A stretch of DNA of 21,022 nucleotides, taken from a virus. Each line of letters starts with the position of its first letter. Position 1 is the stretch's first letter. Under the pieces are notes generated by a model that was not told where the DNA came from, ran no database searches, and was given only the letters and a program-made list of their open reading frames with translations. The position numbers were made by a program, and so were the translations under genes. Positions 13,285-21,008 of this stretch are shown in pieces. The stretch is from the IMG/VR virus record IMGVR_UViG_3300006924_000259, positions 1 to 21,022 of that record. One strand, written 5' to 3'.

Positions 13285-13569
13285 ATGGCACAAAAAATAA
13301 GCGAGGATACTAATGTACAATTGGATTTAAAAACAATAGGTATTATAGTAGCTGGAGCTGTATCTCTTGCGGGAATGTATTTTACGTTAAATGCAGAAAT
13401 AGAATTAGCTAAAGAATTACCTAAACCTGAATTAACGAGAACAGAATATGATCTAAAGGATCAGCTAATAAGGGAAACAATCGAAAATACAGCAGAGCAA
13501 GTTGAAGAAAATTCTAATAAATTAGATAAAATAGATGAAAAATTATATGAGATCATACAAAAAAAATGA
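13285..13569 (+). CDS. Single-TM coiled-coil membrane protein of the lysis module
   Basis: A 94-residue protein with a short polar N-terminus, one membrane helix (TIGIIVAGAVSLAGMYFTL, 17-35) and a long charged coiled coil (about 53-94, with heptad-like spacing through IRETIENTAEQVEENSNKLDKID). No signal peptidase motif. This shape suits an inner-membrane spanin-like protein or an accessory holin. It overlaps the next gene by ATGA and lies upstream of the amidase and holin. The lysis link is from position and shape; no family is recognised. Confidence 0.75.
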   Translation: MAQKISEDTNVQLDLKTIGIIVAGAVSLAGMYFTLNAEIELAKELPKPELTRTEYDLKDQLIRETIENTAEQVEENSNKLDKIDEKLYEIIQKK

Positions 13570-13910
13570 GAAAAATATTTGCCCTAATTGTGTTCTTTGC
13601 ATTTGTAACAAGTAATGCACAGGATTTAACAATTATACATATCAATGCTAGTTGGAATCAAAGAAATAACTATGAGTTTATTGATGATTTAAAAGGCGTT
13701 AGAAAACAATATGGTTATTTAGAAGATCAAGCACCTTCAATTAAAAAAAGCATAAAATCAGTTCCTACAATTATATTAATGAAAGATGGACGACCAGTTT
13801 ACATTTGGAATGCTGATATTTCATTAAAAATAAAAATTCCTGTTTATGAAATACAGGAGATTATTGATCAACATAGATTTATAAATCGTAGAGCTAAAAC
13901 AACTGAATAA
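13566..13910 (+). CDS. Secreted thioredoxin-fold protein without active-site cysteines
   Basis: A 114-residue protein with a clear signal peptide: MRK, hydrophobic IFALIVFFAFV, and a cleavage site after Ala18 (SNA-QD), the usual Bacteroidota form. The mature part looks like a thioredoxin fold: strand TIIHINASW (22-30), helix with WNQRN (30-34) exactly where WCxxC should be, and a cis-proline strand SVPTIILMKDGRPVYIW (65-81), then a final helix (94-104). The protein has no cysteine at all, so it cannot be a disulfide oxidoreductase. It probably acts as a periplasmic binding or structural protein. It overlaps both neighbours (ATGA and TAATGA) and lies between a membrane coiled-coil protein and the amidase, so a lysis role, for example outer-membrane disruption or amidase partner, is plausible but unproven. 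Confidence 0.8.
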   Translation: MRKIFALIVFFAFVTSNAQDLTIIHINASWNQRNNYEFIDDLKGVRKQYGYLEDQAPSIKKSIKSVPTIILMKDGRPVYIWNADISLKIKIPVYEIQEIIDQHRFINRRAKTTE

Positions 13911-14344
13911 TGAGAAATATAAATAAATTAATAGTGCATTGTACTGCTACACCAGAACATAAAGATTTTAATGTCGAAGATGTTAGAGAATGGCATGTAA
14001 AAGGAAATGGCTGGTCGGATGTGGGTTATCATTTTTTAATAAAATTAGATGGTACTGTTGAAGATGGGAGACCTATTGAAAGAAGTGGTGCTCATGTAGC
14101 TGGATATAATAAAAATAGTATAGGGATTGCTTATGTGGGAGGCATGGATAAAAACATGGAAGAATGGATTGATACAAGAACTGTTGAACAAAAAGATGCT
14201 TTGCATAATTTATTAATGGATCTTAAATATGAATATCCTGATTCTGTAATTTATGGACACAATGATTTTACAGATCAAAAGGTTTGCCCATGTTTTAATG
14301 CTAAGGAAGAATATAAAGAAATTAGTAATTGGATTAATAAATAA
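13910..14344 (+). CDS. N-acetylmuramoyl-L-alanine amidase (T7 lysozyme-type endolysin)
   Basis: A 144-residue zinc amidase that cuts the bond between MurNAc and L-Ala of peptidoglycan to lyse the cell. Key residues line up with T7 lysozyme: zinc ligand His10 in VHCTAT, Tyr40 in VGYHFLI, zinc ligand His117 in YGHND, Lys124 and zinc ligand Cys126 in QKVCPCF. WHVKGNGWSDVGYHF (28-42) and RSGAHVAGYNKNSIGIAYVGG (58-78) are standard for the family. The usual G after CP is a cysteine (Cys128), a small oddity. No signal peptide, so it needs the holin encoded downstream for export. Its stop overlaps the next small ORF (TAATG). Confidence 0.95.
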   Translation: MRNINKLIVHCTATPEHKDFNVEDVREWHVKGNGWSDVGYHFLIKLDGTVEDGRPIERSGAHVAGYNKNSIGIAYVGGMDKNMEEWIDTRTVEQKDALHNLLMDLKYEYPDSVIYGHNDFTDQKVCPCFNAKEEYKEISNWINK

Positions 14345-14481
14345 TGGATTTTGGTTTTGCTCTTATTCCAAATGGTTTTTTATTGGGTTTAGAATTTTAT
14401 CCAATAGAAATTGATCAAGATTATAATGAATTAAATATTTATTTATTTTTAATAGTTTTACATTTTAGATTTTATTCATGA
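14344..14481 (+). CDS. Small hydrophobic ORF in the lysis module (45 aa)
   Basis: The ORF starts in the amidase stop (TAATG) and its stop overlaps the holin start (ATGA), so it fills the 133-nt gap exactly. The protein is hydrophobic and aromatic: FGFALIPNGFLLGLEFYPIE, an acidic middle (IDQDYNELN), then YLFLIVLHFRFYS. The last part could be a short membrane helix. No family recognised. Overlap on both sides is good evidence that it is translated; an antiholin, spanin-like or assembly role is only a guess. Confidence 0.6.
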   Translation: MDFGFALIPNGFLLGLEFYPIEIDQDYNELNIYLFLIVLHFRFYS

Positions 14482-14942
14482 GTGATAAAAAAAAGTTTAA
14501 GGAAACTACAGTTGGCAAATTATTATTTGGTGCTGCATCAATGATTAATCCTACTTTAGGAAAGATTTTAACTGGGGTTACTTCTCCACAAGATGCTTTA
14601 GCAGAAATTCAAAAATCAAAAATATCTGTTGATGATAAAATCAAATTACAACAATTAATATATGATCAACAAAATAAGGAAATGGCTGAAGTTTCTTCTA
14701 GATGGAAAGCTGATCAAATGAGTGATTCCTGGCTATCTAAAAATGTGCGACCACTTGTTTTGGTTTGGTGCATTGTGGTTTTTAGTTTTGCTGGAATTTT
14801 AGATAGTGTTGAATCAATACCTTTTCATATTGGTGAGACATGGAATGATACTTTTGAAAAAGTGATGATGTCCGTAGTTTTAGCATACTTTGGTGGGAGG
14901 TCAAGCGAAAAAGCAATAGGGTTATTTAGAAAAAATGGCTAA
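14478..14942 (+). CDS. Holin, 3-TM type (Holin_3TMs-like)
   Basis: A 154-residue protein with the features of the 3-TM holin family: a helical N-terminus with a hydrophobic, glycine-rich segment (VGKLLFGAASMINPTLGKIL, 12-31), a charged amphipathic middle, the signature SSRWKADQMSDSWLSKNVRPL (73-93) leading into a membrane helix (LVLVWCIVVFSFAGIL, 93-108), and a last helix with the FGGRSSEKAI ending (138-147). It makes membrane lesions that let the amidase reach the cell wall. It overlaps the preceding ORF by ATGA and the following one by 8 nt. Confidence 0.88.
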   Translation: MSDKKKFKETTVGKLLFGAASMINPTLGKILTGVTSPQDALAEIQKSKISVDDKIKLQQLIYDQQNKEMAEVSSRWKADQMSDSWLSKNVRPLVLVWCIVVFSFAGILDSVESIPFHIGETWNDTFEKVMMSVVLAYFGGRSSEKAIGLFRKNG

Positions 14943-15098: not shown

Positions 15099-18000
15099 AT
15101 GGGTACTACATTAACTGGCAAAAGAGTACAGAATACTTATGATTCACTTATAAAGATTTCTGATAATAATAATTTAAGCGGTGTTGCTAAAATATTAGGT
15201 GATGGATTAGGAAATGATTCTCCAATTTATTTAAGTACATCACAGATCGGAATAGGCATTACACCTTCATACCAATTTCATACAAGCGGAAATGCTAAAA
15301 TTGGTGGCAATCTTATAATATCTGGTGATTTAACAGTAAATGGTACACTAACATATTTAAATGTAACTGATCTAGCAGTCGAGGATCCGTTAATAAAATT
15401 AGCAAAAGACAATACAGCAAACACATTAGATATTGGATTATTTGGTAAATACGTTGCTACTGGAACAAAGTATAAAGGTTTTTACAATGATGCTAGTGAT
15501 GATAAATTTAAGCTATTTATAGGCACTACTGTCGAGCCAACAACAACTGTTGACACATCTGCAAGCGGATATACTGTTGGAACTCTTGTAGCTAATTTAG
15601 AAGGAAATGCAGATACTGCAACTGGTGTTTTAATAACTGCTGACAATACTAATGCATCTAGGAGAATGGTGTTTACACAATCAAATAATACAACTAATAC
15701 AAATGGTAAATTGTTTAAAGATAGTGCTAGTAATTTCTTTTACAATCCAAGTAGCAACAGATTAACTTTAGTAAATTTAACAGGAACTACTGGAACTTTT
15801 AGTGGTTTATTAAAATCAGATACATTAGAATTAACAAGTGGCGATGATCATTTAACAATAACAGAATCATCTGGTGATTGGACAATTAATAATGCTCAAC
15901 AAAATAATGGTATTACTATTTATGATGGTACTGGTGGTATTGATTTAAAATATTCTGGTACAAGTTATTTAGATATAGATGTTAATGGTGTTTCTGTTGC
16001 AGCCAATATAGATTTTTATGTAGATACTAATACTTTGTATGTAGATGCCGCAAATAATTTAGTTGGTATTGGTAAAACTCCTAGCACTTATAAACTTGAT
16101 GTAAGTGGTAAAATAGCTAGTAATAATTATATAATAGCTGGCTTAGGAAGTGGAGGTACTGCATTAACACACAATGATGGCGGTGGGAATGCCAATATTA
16201 CTTTTAATCATGTATCTGAAACACCTGAGCAAGATGGAAGTTCTGGTCGTATTTCTGTTTTAACTGACAGTACTACTGCTAAAATGAGTTTTGAGTTAAA
16301 AGATGATGTAACAGCAGATACAGAGGTTAATACTGCAATGATTATGGAACTTTATACAAGTTCAATAATAGCAAATCGAAAAATTAGAGCAAGAACAACA
16401 ACTGGTGGACATATTTATTTTGACAGAAATGATACAACTATTGGAACTGACAATCATATAGGTACATTACATTTTTCTGGTGATGATCCAACGGATGGCA
16501 CTTTTAATGATGGTGCTGCTATAAAAATTACATCAGTATCTGATTGGAGTGCAAATAATTATCCATCAAGAATAGAATTACAAACAGATAATGCTGGTAC
16601 ATTAACAACTGCATTAACTATTAATGAATCACAAAATACAACATTTAGCGGTGATATTACTATTGCTAAAACCGATCCAACTATAACTTTATTTGATAAC
16701 TCTGGTGCTAATACTGATCCAAATGGTAAAATAATATTTAGTGAATTAGCTGACCAATCTAATTTTGAAATTAGCTATAATGGTTTAAATGATAGGTTGG
16801 AGTTTATAGGTTTAGTAAGTAATGTTTTAACTGATTTAGTTTACATAAAAAGAAATACAACAACAACTTTAAATGTTTTAGGTGGTGCAACATTTAGTGG
16901 ATTAGTAACTGGTATAGCACCAACATCAGATTTAAACTTTGCTACAAAAAAATATGTAGATGATAATATAGTTCCACAACAATCATTAAGTAATGTTTTA
17001 GGTGTTGGAAACACATCTGGTGCTAATGACATTATAATGGCTGATGATCAAAAAATTAGTTTTGGTGATGATTCTGATTTAAATATAAAGTTTGATGGCA
17101 CTAATAGTACTATAAACAATAAAACTGGGAATTTAAACATACTTGTAAGTGCAGATGATTCAGATATATCATTTCAATCTGATAATGGATCTGGTGGCAC
17201 TATTGAATATTTTAGATTAGATGGTTCAACAAATACAGTACCATTTGGAAGATCACCGCATTTACCAGATGCTTTAAGATTATACTTTGGTAATGACACA
17301 ACAGATGATGCAAGTATTAGATGGGAATCAACTGCTAGTCAGTTGTTTATTGATGGCGAATCTAAATTTTTAGAAAAATTAATTGCAAACAACAATTTTG
17401 TAGCTCAAGGTACTGTTGATTTAAATGTAATGCCTACTCACCAATCTGAAGGTTCAATAAAAATAGGTAGATATGATGGCAATACAACAAGGTTTCATTT
17501 AATAAAAAACTACGTTTCAACAACTCTAGCTAGTAATTATATGAAATTTTCACTACACAATGATGTTGATAACGATACAACAGATGTATTAAGTTTATTT
17601 GGAGATGGTAATGTCGAAATACCAAATGGTACATTAACTAGCGGCAATATAACAGTAAGTGATGATGGTGTACCACAATTAATTTTAAATGATACTGGCA
17701 ATGCTGGTGGTGGAGGAGCATCTGGAAAAATTATATATAAAAATACTGCTGGTAATGCTATTGGTTTAGGTTATACTGCTGATGACACAACAAGCTCTGA
17801 TTTTATTATTTCTAGTAATGCAAGCAGTACTTATGGTGGTTATTTAGGTTTAGATGCTGGTGCAATTAGTGATCCAAGCCAAATTATACTTGATCCTAAA
17901 ACAGATGTTTATTCAACAAAGCCAGTAACAACAGCTAATGTGTTTATTGCTAATGATCTTGATGTAACTAATACTGCACCATCAACAGATCAATTAAGAG

Positions 18001-21000
18001 CTAGTGGTTATGGTATTATTGGTAATAGAGCTGGATTTTTATATATAACTAATGCAGCATCTGGCGGTACTGTTCAAATTGGAAATGGCACATCACACAA
18101 TGCTGATGCAACTGCTTTATTTAATACATCTTTAATAACATTAAGCAAACAAACCTTAATAAGTGCTAAAACCACTATTGGATTTGGACAAATAACAACT
18201 AATATAGGAACAACATCACATTTAAGAATCCAACCTACTGCAACTACTGATACAACTGGTAAAACATCAATATTTTTAGGAACATCAACAGTAGATAATT
18301 ATGGTATATCATTAAGGGGTGCAAGATTTGGTGATACTGGAACACCAAAATTTGAAATAGCTGTACATAATAATTCTGCTAATGGTTCAGTTGCTTTAGA
18401 AATTGACCAATTTATAAACACACACATAAAAGGTGAATTGTTTATTGAAGATGTAGATAATGCAACGGCAGCAGATACAGATAAAGTTCTTGTAATGTCT
18501 AATGAAAGCGGTGAGGTACAATATAGAACACCTAACCAATTAGCAGATGATATGAATGTGCCAACTGGATTTGGTGGAGCTGGTTTAATACCTATATATG
18601 AAACAACAGATACTTTTACAACAAATTCAAATTTATATTGGGATATTGCTAATGGTCGACTAGGATTAGGTGATACGACACCTAGTTACAGATTAGATTT
18701 AGTTACTGGAACAATAGATACAGCACAATATTCTATGAGAATACATCATAGCAGAAATGATCCTGATCAGAATAGTGCTGCTTTATTTATTGATGCTAAT
18801 TACACAGGTACAAAATCAGATGCTACCGATATAATACAAAGGGGTTTGCATGTTGATTTTGATTCTTCAGCTAATGGAACTGCTGCTGATGAGCATAGAA
18901 TATACGGTATTCATTCAGACACTAGAAATAGTGGTTTTGCTGATATTGTATATGGAACATACTCTTTAGCTGAATCTAATTATACTGGTGGTAAAACTGC
19001 TAATGTTGGGGGAGTTTATGGTATAGCTACTCACGACTCTAGTAGTGCAAGTGGTGGTGTTACAAATTTGTTCGGTGTAAAGGGTATTGCACAAATACAA
19101 GATGATGGTGATGTGGATAATTCTTATGGCGGGCAATTCCAAGTACTTATAGCAAACAATAGAGATGCTAATGTTGATATCATAGTAGGTGTTGAAGCAG
19201 AAATACAAATTGATGAACAGAGTGCATTGACCTATGGAGGTATGCATGGTTTTAGAGCTATTATTGATAACAACGAGGGTGCTGTACCAACCTTTGGAAA
19301 CCAATTTTTATTCAAAGGCGATTATCAAGGAACAAGAGGAAGTGCTGCTTATGGTATATATTCTGAGGGTGATAGACATTATTTTGAAGGAATGGTATCA
19401 ATTGGAAATAATAATGTTGATACTGGCTTACCTTTAAATATACATCATGCTACAAATTCACAAATACGTTTTTCAACAGATGGAACTGGTACTGGAACGA
19501 GTGATGGATTTAGAGTAGGTTATAATGGCACAGTTGGTCAATTATATTTATATGAAAATGCTGATATTAGAATAGCGACAAATAACACCCCTTTTGCTTA
19601 TTTTACAAGCGATCAAAAATTTGGTATTGGCACAGATGATCCAGCGGGTCAATTTAATAGTTATATATCAGCAACAAGACAACTAACACATAATGGTAAT
19701 GGCGGAGATTTATCTATAATTAGTGATAACAATTCAGCACCAGTTATGTTTATAAAAGGCACTGGTACTGCTGACTTGTTAAATGTTTTTAATGGAAGTA
19801 CAGAAAGGTTAAAAATAGACAGCTCTGGAAACCAAACATTAAATTTATCTAGCACCACAACACAATTTATAGGTAATTCATCTGGAACTTTAGTCATTAA
19901 AAATACAACTGGTGGCATTAATTTTATGGCTAATGGAAGCACAGTTGTTTCAGCTTATATTACATCAAGTTTAATAACACTAAATGAAATAACTCAAATC
20001 AATAATAGATTGCAAACAAGTACTCCAATGGGAGATGTTGCAACTTGGGATAGTGCTGTTATAAGAGTAAATGCAACAAATACAATAGACACAACTGGTT
20101 TTCTAGGAATGCGATTTGCTACAAGTACTGCTAATAATTATGGCTGGAGAATTGGTGCTAATAGAACTGGCTCTGGTAGAGGTTCATTAAAAGTTTTCGA
20201 ACATATTAATAATGTTGCTGGCGCTCAAAGATTTGTAATAAAACCTGATGGTAATGTTGGTATTGGTGTTGGTGCTGATCCGACACATAAATTAGGTATA
20301 CACAATAATACATCTGGAGCGGTAAGTTCACAAATGAATTTTACAACTGCATCAACAGGTCAAACTGATGGTAATGGTTTTAGGGTTGGCTGGAATGGAA
20401 CTGTTGCTCAAATGTATTTATTTGAAAATGCTGACATGCGTTTTGCAACTAGTGGTACAGAAAGAATGGTTTTAGCTGCTGATGGTGATTTAAAGATAGC
20501 AAGATATTTAGAACATTTAGGAGATACAAACTCTTATTTAGGTTGGAGTGGAGGAGATGATTTTAGAATTGTTACTGGTAGTCGTGAATTATTAAGATTA
20601 GATGAGGGAACTGATCCAGATATTCTAAAATTTATGACAAACACTATAACAATGTCATCTGGTGGTGATTTTACTGCTGCTAAGGTTACAGCTAGTGGTG
20701 ATGTAATTGCCTTTTCTGATAAAAGAGTAAAAACAAATATAAAAACTATTAGCAATGGTTTAGAAAAAGTGTCTAAATTAAGGGGTGTTAGTTATAACAG
20801 AACAGATGTAAATGATAAATCAAACAAAATAGGTGTTATTGCTCAAGAAGTTCAAGAGGTGTTGCCAGAGGTTGTTAACTATGATAATAAAAAAGATTTA
20901 TTAGGAGTTGATTATGGCAAAATGGCTGGCGTATTTATTGAAGCTATAAAAGAATTAAAAGCAGAGGTTGATAGTTTAAAACAAGAAATAAAACAATTAA

Positions 21001-21008
21001 AAAAATAA
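15099..21008 (+). CDS. Giant tail fibre with C-terminal S74 chaperone domain (1969 aa)
   Basis: A receptor-binding fibre, nearly 30% of the window. The protein is rich in Thr, Asn, Gly and Ser with almost no cysteine, as expected for trimeric beta fibres. Near the N-terminus, SGDLTVNGTLTYLNVTDLAVEDPLIKLAK (about 77-105) is a segment seen in phage fibres with this layout. Many 'VGIG.TP...LDVSGKI' type repeats follow, and larger modules occur in divergent pairs (16650-16760 with 17640-17760; 18129-18405 with 19968-20215; 19455-19585 with 20329-20470). The last 97 residues are an intramolecular chaperone of the endosialidase type (Peptidase_S74): FSDKRVKTNIK with Ser1873 and Lys1878 spaced five residues like the known self-cleaving dyad, then VSYNR, IGVIAQEVQEVLPEVV, YGKMAGVFIEAIKELKAEV and a final coiled coil. 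It folds the trimer and is then cut off. Preceded by a TAAATTTG box. Confidence 0.93.
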   Translation: MGTTLTGKRVQNTYDSLIKISDNNNLSGVAKILGDGLGNDSPIYLSTSQIGIGITPSYQFHTSGNAKIGGNLIISGDLTVNGTLTYLNVTDLAVEDPLIKLAKDNTANTLDIGLFGKYVATGTKYKGFYNDASDDKFKLFIGTTVEPTTTVDTSASGYTVGTLVANLEGNADTATGVLITADNTNASRRMVFTQSNNTTNTNGKLFKDSASNFFYNPSSNRLTLVNLTGTTGTFSGLLKSDTLELTSGDDHLTITESSGDWTINNAQQNNGITIYDGTGGIDLKYSGTSYLDIDVNGVSVAANIDFYVDTNTLYVDAANNLVGIGKTPSTYKLDVSGKIASNNYIIAGLGSGGTALTHNDGGGNANITFNHVSETPEQDGSSGRISVLTDSTTAKMSFELKDDVTADTEVNTAMIMELYTSSIIANRKIRARTTTGGHIYFDRNDTTIGTDNHIGTLHFSGDDPTDGTFNDGAAIKITSVSDWSANNYPSRIELQTDNAGTLTTALTINESQNTTFSGDITIAKTDPTITLFDNSGANTDPNGKIIFSELADQSNFEISYNGLNDRLEFIGLVSNVLTDLVYIKRNTTTTLNVLGGATFSGLVTGIAPTSDLNFATKKYVDDNIVPQQSLSNVLGVGNTSGANDIIMADDQKISFGDDSDLNIKFDGTNSTINNKTGNLNILVSADDSDISFQSDNGSGGTIEYFRLDGSTNTVPFGRSPHLPDALRLYFGNDTTDDASIRWESTASQLFIDGESKFLEKLIANNNFVAQGTVDLNVMPTHQSEGSIKIGRYDGNTTRFHLIKNYVSTTLASNYMKFSLHNDVDNDTTDVLSLFGDGNVEIPNGTLTSGNITVSDDGVPQLILNDTGNAGGGGASGKIIYKNTAGNAIGLGYTADDTTSSDFIISSNASSTYGGYLGLDAGAISDPSQIILDPKTDVYSTKPVTTANVFIANDLDVTNTAPSTDQLRASGYGIIGNRAGFLYITNAASGGTVQIGNGTSHNADATALFNTSLITLSKQTLISAKTTIGFGQITTNIGTTSHLRIQPTATTDTTGKTSIFLGTSTVDNYGISLRGARFGDTGTPKFEIAVHNNSANGSVALEIDQFINTHIKGELFIEDVDNATAADTDKVLVMSNESGEVQYRTPNQLADDMNVPTGFGGAGLIPIYETTDTFTTNSNLYWDIANGRLGLGDTTPSYRLDLVTGTIDTAQYSMRIHHSRNDPDQNSAALFIDANYTGTKSDATDIIQRGLHVDFDSSANGTAADEHRIYGIHSDTRNSGFADIVYGTYSLAESNYTGGKTANVGGVYGIATHDSSSASGGVTNLFGVKGIAQIQDDGDVDNSYGGQFQVLIANNRDANVDIIVGVEAEIQIDEQSALTYGGMHGFRAIIDNNEGAVPTFGNQFLFKGDYQGTRGSAAYGIYSEGDRHYFEGMVSIGNNNVDTGLPLNIHHATNSQIRFSTDGTGTGTSDGFRVGYNGTVGQLYLYENADIRIATNNTPFAYFTSDQKFGIGTDDPAGQFNSYISATRQLTHNGNGGDLSIISDNNSAPVMFIKGTGTADLLNVFNGSTERLKIDSSGNQTLNLSSTTTQFIGNSSGTLVIKNTTGGINFMANGSTVVSAYITSSLITLNEITQINNRLQTSTPMGDVATWDSAVIRVNATNTIDTTGFLGMRFATSTANNYGWRIGANRTGSGRGSLKVFEHINNVAGAQRFVIKPDGNVGIGVGADPTHKLGIHNNTSGAVSSQMNFTTASTGQTDGNGFRVGWNGTVAQMYLFENADMRFATSGTERMVLAADGDLKIARYLEHLGDTNSYLGWSGGDDFRIVTGSRELLRLDEGTDPDILKFMTNTITMSSGGDFTAAKVTASGDVIAFSDKRVKTNIKTISNGLEKVSKLRGVSYNRTDVNDKSNKIGVIAQEVQEVLPEVVNYDNKKDLLGVDYGKMAGVFIEAIKELKAEVDSLKQEIKQLKK
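18129..20215 (+). repeat. Divergent duplicated module in tail fibre (two copies, about 250-280 bp each)
   Basis: 18129-18405 and 19968-20215 both begin with SLITL, pass through a TTxxIGF/TSTPMGD-type strand, then show DTTGKTSIFLGTSTVDNYG against DTTGFLGMRFATSTANNYG, followed by Arg/Gly-rich strands and an E-x-x-x-x-N-N end. The span covers both copies and what lies between. Supports a fibre built by reuse of shaft or knob modules. Confidence 0.6.
19455..20470 (+). repeat. Divergent duplicated module in tail fibre (two copies, about 130 bp each)
   Basis: 19455-19585 and 20329-20470 encode similar segments: DGFRVGYNGTVGQLYLYENADIRIAT and NGFRVGWNGTVAQMYLFENADMRFAT are recognisable cores (each given here only in part: FRV GxNGTV xQ xYLxENAD). 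The DNA is less similar than the protein, so the duplication is old. The span listed covers both copies and the unrelated stretch between them, which includes copy two of another module pair. Confidence 0.7.

Follow-up and report, generated by a model that had tools for sequence, protein, structure and literature searches.

A cysteine-free thioredoxin-fold protein paired with a membrane coiled-coil protein in phage lysis cassettes

Two overlapping genes that lie among the lysis genes of a 21,022-base virus record (IMG/VR IMGVR_UViG_3300006924_000259, classed as a possible fragment and referred to here, at its full length, as the window) belong to a widespread and strictly conserved two-gene unit. 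The second of them, T (13566–13910, plus strand), encodes an exported thioredoxin-fold protein that lacks cysteines and retains a defined putative binding site, while the first, C (13285–13569, plus strand), encodes a transmembrane (TM) coiled-coil protein. Little is known of how the outer membrane (OM) gives way during lysis by phages of Bacteroidota; the C–T pair bears on that gap, and our analysis suggests that it is an undescribed part of the envelope-breaking machinery.

Fold of T and the site of the lost cysteines

The T reading frame opens with an ATG and encodes 114 amino acids, none of them cysteine. Its N-terminus (residues 1–18, 13566–13619) forms a typical signal peptide of the Bacteroidota type (K/R, a hydrophobic stretch, ...SNA|QD) with predicted cleavage before Gln19, a residue invariant in 50 relatives, in keeping with the export proposed by the first-pass annotation of this DNA. 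The AlphaFold2 model, for which the alignment held 50 relatives, reached a pLDDT of 84.9 overall, with every 10-residue block of residues 21–100 at 90–95, and follows the order strand-helix-strand-helix-strand-strand-helix. This β-α-β-α-β-β-α core fits solved thioredoxins: the top matches of the model were all thioredoxins in both Foldseek and VIA-align (Z up to 10.1; 2.1–2.2 Å over 80–81 residues), bearing out the fold that had been proposed from the letters alone. When the model was compared with a viral library, the best matches were four unnamed proteins (24–38% identity), followed by annotated phage thioredoxins.

At the position of the WCxxC motif T reads W-N-Q-R-N (residues 30–34, 13653–13667), as the first-pass annotation had pointed out, and both asparagines are invariant in the 50 relatives. 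The CxxC active site of a redox-active thioredoxin is therefore missing from a protein that has no cysteine at all and, judged from its sequence, redox chemistry at this site is not possible. The S-V-P-T-I segment (residues 65–69, 13758–13772), earlier described as a retained cis-Pro strand, places a proline where thioredoxins have their cis-Pro, ahead of the third strand, and by sequence position V66 and P67 are invariant in the same relatives. An A-D-I-S loop (residues 83–86, 13812–13823), in a form common to three clades of the family, makes up the third side of the thioredoxin groove. T thus shares its fold, cis-Pro strand and groove layout with the thioredoxins (PF00085; Thermus and Staphylococcus, 1v98 and 2o89) but differs from them in having NxxN for CxxC, a shorter stretch from the motif to the next strand, an export signal and a TM coiled-coil gene as its partner; searches with the T of the window gave no match in Pfam, in PHROG or by tblastn. 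Neither VIA nor Foldseek singled out a non-redox homologue, their listings being dominated by redox-active thioredoxins. Redox-inactive cellular thioredoxin folds (phosducin, HyaE and others) serve as binding modules after loss of the CxxC; by analogy T may use the same fold in this way, although it is phage-encoded and linked to lysis.

IMG/VR searches begun from T, C and the holin produced 296 T genes adjoining a C gene, 204 of them distinct, and this required adjacency excluded the short Lys-rich reading frames that entered the T profile set as false positives. A CxxC in the mature part was found in none of the 204, so that close homologues with an intact motif, which the first-pass annotation had named as evidence against its reading, are absent from the set. 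Since most of these sequences were reached through C or the holin and not through the motif, the zero does not stem from the way the search was made. CxxC matches in six clade A members (CAIC or CVIC) lie inside the signal peptide and not at the active site. NxxN occupies the position in 164 of the 204, in both clade A (the window type) and clade C, and the other 40 constitute clade B (e.g., L151:737–1087), with neither CxxC nor NxxN; the clades were defined using this pattern, and per-clade counts are therefore descriptive. Clade C proteins are about 134 residues long ('EFWAEFNKENCF'), and three of them pass the Pfam Thioredoxin model PF00085 (29–30 bits against a cut-off of 23.5). Because clade C in turn aligns to clade A (profile comparison probability 98.1%), the sequences support the descent of T from true thioredoxins, with both cysteines replaced by asparagine.

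Constraint on T is concentrated around the former active site. Only nine columns are invariant among 50 diverse clade A relatives (Q19, N27, W30, N31, N34, L52, Q55, V66 and P67), both motif asparagines being among them, and a loose A[D/G][I/L]S loop signature is matched by 195 of the 204 distinct proteins. Groove positions defined from an alignment with E. coli thioredoxin are conserved above the rest (P 0.011); the test becomes much stronger without the two variable x positions, a set picked after the alignment had been seen. Pairwise dN/dS is about 0.11–0.32. Taken together, the pattern fits purifying selection on a putative binding site and not decay; a decaying pseudogene was rejected given the open frame, a dN/dS well below 1 and the invariant asparagines. 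If this is true, T would neatly exemplify how an enzyme fold can become a binding module, here through the invariant replacement of two cysteines by asparagine. A groove conserved though its cysteines are gone, in an exported protein, would also suit a dominant-negative thioredoxin that non-covalently occupies host periplasmic partners (DsbD/CcdA-like proteins or OM assembly factors) and so disturbs disulfide or envelope upkeep before lysis, but this leaves the strict pairing with C unexplained and we regard it as quite improbable.

The C–T pair and its lysis neighbourhood

The window has the gene content of a tailed phage (terminase, portal and head genes recognised by eye, connector and tail-terminator genes by PHROG), and its genes run from the tail terminator through C–T, an Amidase_2 endolysin and a holin to a very long fibre-like gene. 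The endolysin, an N-acetylmuramoyl-L-alanine amidase (13910–14344, plus strand; PF01510, E 3e-16; PHROG amidase, 8e-58), and the holin-like protein (14478–14942, plus strand; PHROG holin, 2e-17; Pfam GTA_holin_3TM under its cut-off) give T the lysis setting that had been claimed for it, and its relatives likewise lie mostly in lysis cassettes. The overlaps of T with its neighbours, put at 1–4 nt by the first-pass annotation, measure 4 nt with C and 1 nt with the amidase gene. The fibre-like frame (15099–21008) encodes 1969 residues, and its C-terminus looks by eye like an intramolecular chaperone.

C is 94 residues long and consists of an N-terminal TM segment (residues 17–35) and a coiled-coil C-terminal part that is predicted to be periplasmic, as assessed by hydropathy and a heptad test. 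By hydropathy all 197 distinct C relatives have exactly one TM segment, and in 92% of them the tail shows a heptad pattern at P<0.05. These features point to a type II TM protein with a coiled coil, i.e., the layout of an i-spanin, which would sit in the membrane with its N-terminus inside. Pfam and PHROG gave no named family for C, and comparison of C and T with the PHROG spanins returned nothing significant (two C proteins, E 0.18 and 1.8).

The order C then T holds in 276 of 276 loci where the contig continues (loci that are partly redundant, the same contigs having been reached by several queries), with five further C genes at contig ends and one T at a contig start, and the commonest spacing is the 4-nt overlap (169 of 298 pairs). 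The search based on the holin, an independent route, recovered the pair in 51 of the 61 loci that extend far enough upstream. In two of the others, L089 and L108, the place of C–T before an M15 endolysin and a holin is taken, between about 2.8 and 0.5 kb ahead of the holin, by another TM gene together with genes for secreted proteins (an 81–99-residue TM protein ending in a Pro-rich tail, a 239-residue secreted protein and a secreted Asp/Gly/Ser-rich protein of 451–461 residues); among the rest, most of those read show rearranged surroundings. Distance correlations of T with C and of T with the endolysin are both r about 0.48 and do not single out C as the partner.

The endolysin that follows T is, by motif, M15-like or Amidase_2, with an M15 peptidase in most relatives, and since its type varies behind a constant C–T, no single endolysin chemistry goes with T. 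In 151 clade A cases the pair abuts the endolysin; in clade C phages the endolysin often lies one or more genes beyond the pair, and in one locus (L164) no endolysin adjoins C–T, which is followed by a small TM gene and then by genes for the tail. The gene pair itself is thus more invariant than its link to the endolysin. The arrangement in L164, and the position of the pair in the window, with the tail terminator on one side and the giant fibre-like gene on the other, could be taken to mean that C–T is a structural or ejection pair of the tail or virion, lying by chance between tail terminator and fibre genes. A signal peptide and a TM segment are unusual in assembled virion proteins, however, and the pair usually stands directly beside endolysin and holin, which makes this account very improbable.

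The holin and endolysin setting could also point to a lysis-timing regulator, with T (together with C) acting in the periplasm in the manner of an antiholin: it would bind the holin, or C, and either hold lysis back or set it off. T is small, exported and predicted to be periplasmic, it is encoded within the holin/endolysin cassette, and its gene overlaps that of a TM partner; a precedent is RI of phage T4, which acts on the holin T of that phage and is reported to be a secreted periplasmic antiholin (PMC8385771). RI and the T described here are alike in being small exported proteins of a lysis system, but no sequence relation between them was seen, and ours has a thioredoxin fold and is strictly paired with C. 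C–T is present, moreover, where this holin family is not adjacent, and in many relatives it stands beside OM proteins; we consider a timing role unlikely.

Spanins, outer-membrane proteins and a possible role for C–T

The first-pass annotation had suggested that T might replace the outer-membrane spanin (o-spanin), having seen no lipoprotein candidate. That absence holds for the plus strand of the window, a 21-kb fragment. T itself is not a lipoprotein o-spanin, a candidacy ruled out by the lack of a lipobox (a lipobox-like match occurs in one of the 204 distinct relatives), and the arrangement that marks an o-spanin, an OM lipoprotein with a lipobox beside the i-spanin, is thus absent from the plus strand of the window. 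A lipoprotein family with a lipobox, the signature 'VLAVTxEGDTLxLP' and a Pro/Asn-rich tail does accompany C–T elsewhere, its gene coming right behind T in six loci of clade A (e.g., L141), whereas in some of clade C (e.g., L274) it shortly precedes C. In L141 the cassette reads C–T–lipoprotein–M15–holin, each gene overlapping or abutting the next. The family was not found in the window, and it occurs in 7 of 46 long records, which are fragments, so that absence from them is weakly informative. Since such sister cassettes carry both T and an OM lipoprotein, replacement of the o-spanin by T is weakened; it stays conceivable for genomes that have no lipoprotein, and the lipoprotein of the sister cassettes appears from its sequence to be a better o-spanin candidate than T. 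C looks like an i-spanin and the lipoprotein, where present, like an o-spanin, and T would be a third, obligate partner of C. This candidate o-spanin family of these phages comprises 45 loci (e.g., L141:4190–4534 and L274:5571–6017).

The comparison with two-component spanins (lambda Rz/Rz1) is accordingly a partial one. C resembles an i-spanin in its predicted type II TM segment and coiled coil, the two genes overlap within a lysis cassette, and in some relatives a lipoprotein gene lies beside them, but T is a folded soluble domain with no lipobox, and neither protein has a significant sequence match to a spanin. Kongari 2018 (PMC6139136) listed Bacteroides phage B124-14 and Croceibacter phages P2559S/Y as spanin-less and allowed that an outer-membrane protein could act as an o-spanin; a 2025 survey (PMC12596118) gives Bacteroidetes phages unimolecular spanins only, and a paper on North Sea flavophages (PMC8776804) describes TM proteins near endolysins, as well as some unimolecular spanins, and no thioredoxin.

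Our tentative reading, to which we give somewhat less than an even chance, is that C is an i-spanin-like protein and T a periplasmic adaptor working non-covalently through its thioredoxin groove, the pair serving the envelope or outer-membrane step of lysis. T would be a thioredoxin that has lost its redox chemistry and become a periplasmic binding domain, exported through its signal peptide; C would be anchored in the inner membrane with its coiled coil in the periplasm, and within the lysis cassette the two genes would work as one unit. The former active-site groove (NxxN, Val-cisPro and the A[D/G][I/L]S loop) would hold a peptide segment, most likely from the periplasmic part of C or from an outer-membrane partner; the latter might be a lipoprotein or OM β-barrel in relatives and, in phages that encode neither, an OM protein of the host. 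After the holin and endolysin had acted, the complex would come into play at the envelope stage, as an i-spanin-like C with a soluble adaptor instead of a lipoprotein o-spanin. From its periplasmic location to its contact with C and its part in lysis, we infer this role from the features above, and the points against it include, besides the lack of a spanin match, the distance correlations and the looser link to the endolysin in L164 and clade C given above, that T has no OM anchor and that the periplasmic part of C, about 60 residues, is short for bridging the periplasm alone. A stronger version, which we hold to be doubtful, would make C–T a new trans-envelope lysis system: the coiled coil of C would recruit the cysteine-free T as a non-covalent clamp, coupled to an OM protein (a phage lipoprotein, a phage β-barrel or a host protein), and rupture the outer membrane of Bacteroidota, which would explain some 'spanin-less' phages.

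In 55 of 72 clade C cases the gene directly preceding the pair encodes a phage OM protein predicted to be a β-barrel. Two C–T pairs occur in 26 loci (including L183, L217 and L207), with the β-barrel gene between the pairs in 25, and the double loci that were read combine one clade B with one clade A pair. Thioredoxin folds without redox activity are often binding or chaperone domains. C–T might then be a late-expressed periplasmic chaperone for phage OM proteins (the β-barrel, the lipoprotein), involved in envelope assembly or exclusion, e.g., by receptor blocking, which merely shares a late operon with the lysis genes. However, neither the window nor most clade A cassettes show a β-barrel gene of that family close to T, and clade A pairs abut the endolysin in the 151 cases counted above; we consider such a chaperone, like a timing role, unlikely. 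The β-barrel family (about 400 residues; L151:1090–2304 and L225:3759–4982) adjoins C–T in clades B and C, in about 130 loci; its fold is a prediction (pLDDT 74), with no Pfam or significant PHROG match.

Distribution and hosts

Among 50,697 cultured phage records, neither the T of the window nor three further T proteins found a relative, and the T of L151 had a sole match, at E 0.9, to a Xanthomonas phage thioredoxin; C and the lipoprotein associated with the pair likewise had no match among cultured phages. The literature searched yielded no description of a thioredoxin-like lysis protein or of a C–T pair. We regard T as a new family; its fold and the type of gene cassette that carries it are known, while its mechanism is possibly new.

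A restriction of T to viruses agrees with its many IMG/VR relatives and with a search of 399 Flavobacteriales genomes, in which one matched, on a metagenome-assembled genome (MAG) contig carrying phage genes; a host origin of T was rejected on the same result. The phages that carry C–T are marine and their hosts probably Bacteroidota, as suggested by the '...AQ' signal peptides and by one relative in a Crocinitomicaceae MAG contig; another relative is binned in a gammaproteobacterial MAG, MAG binning being weak host evidence. At the end of a Crocinitomicaceae MAG contig a TonB-dependent-receptor-like gene (L165:8719–11229, 836 residues) lies on the opposite strand, 38 bases from the phage endolysin, and may mark a prophage junction, a phage gene or a chimera.
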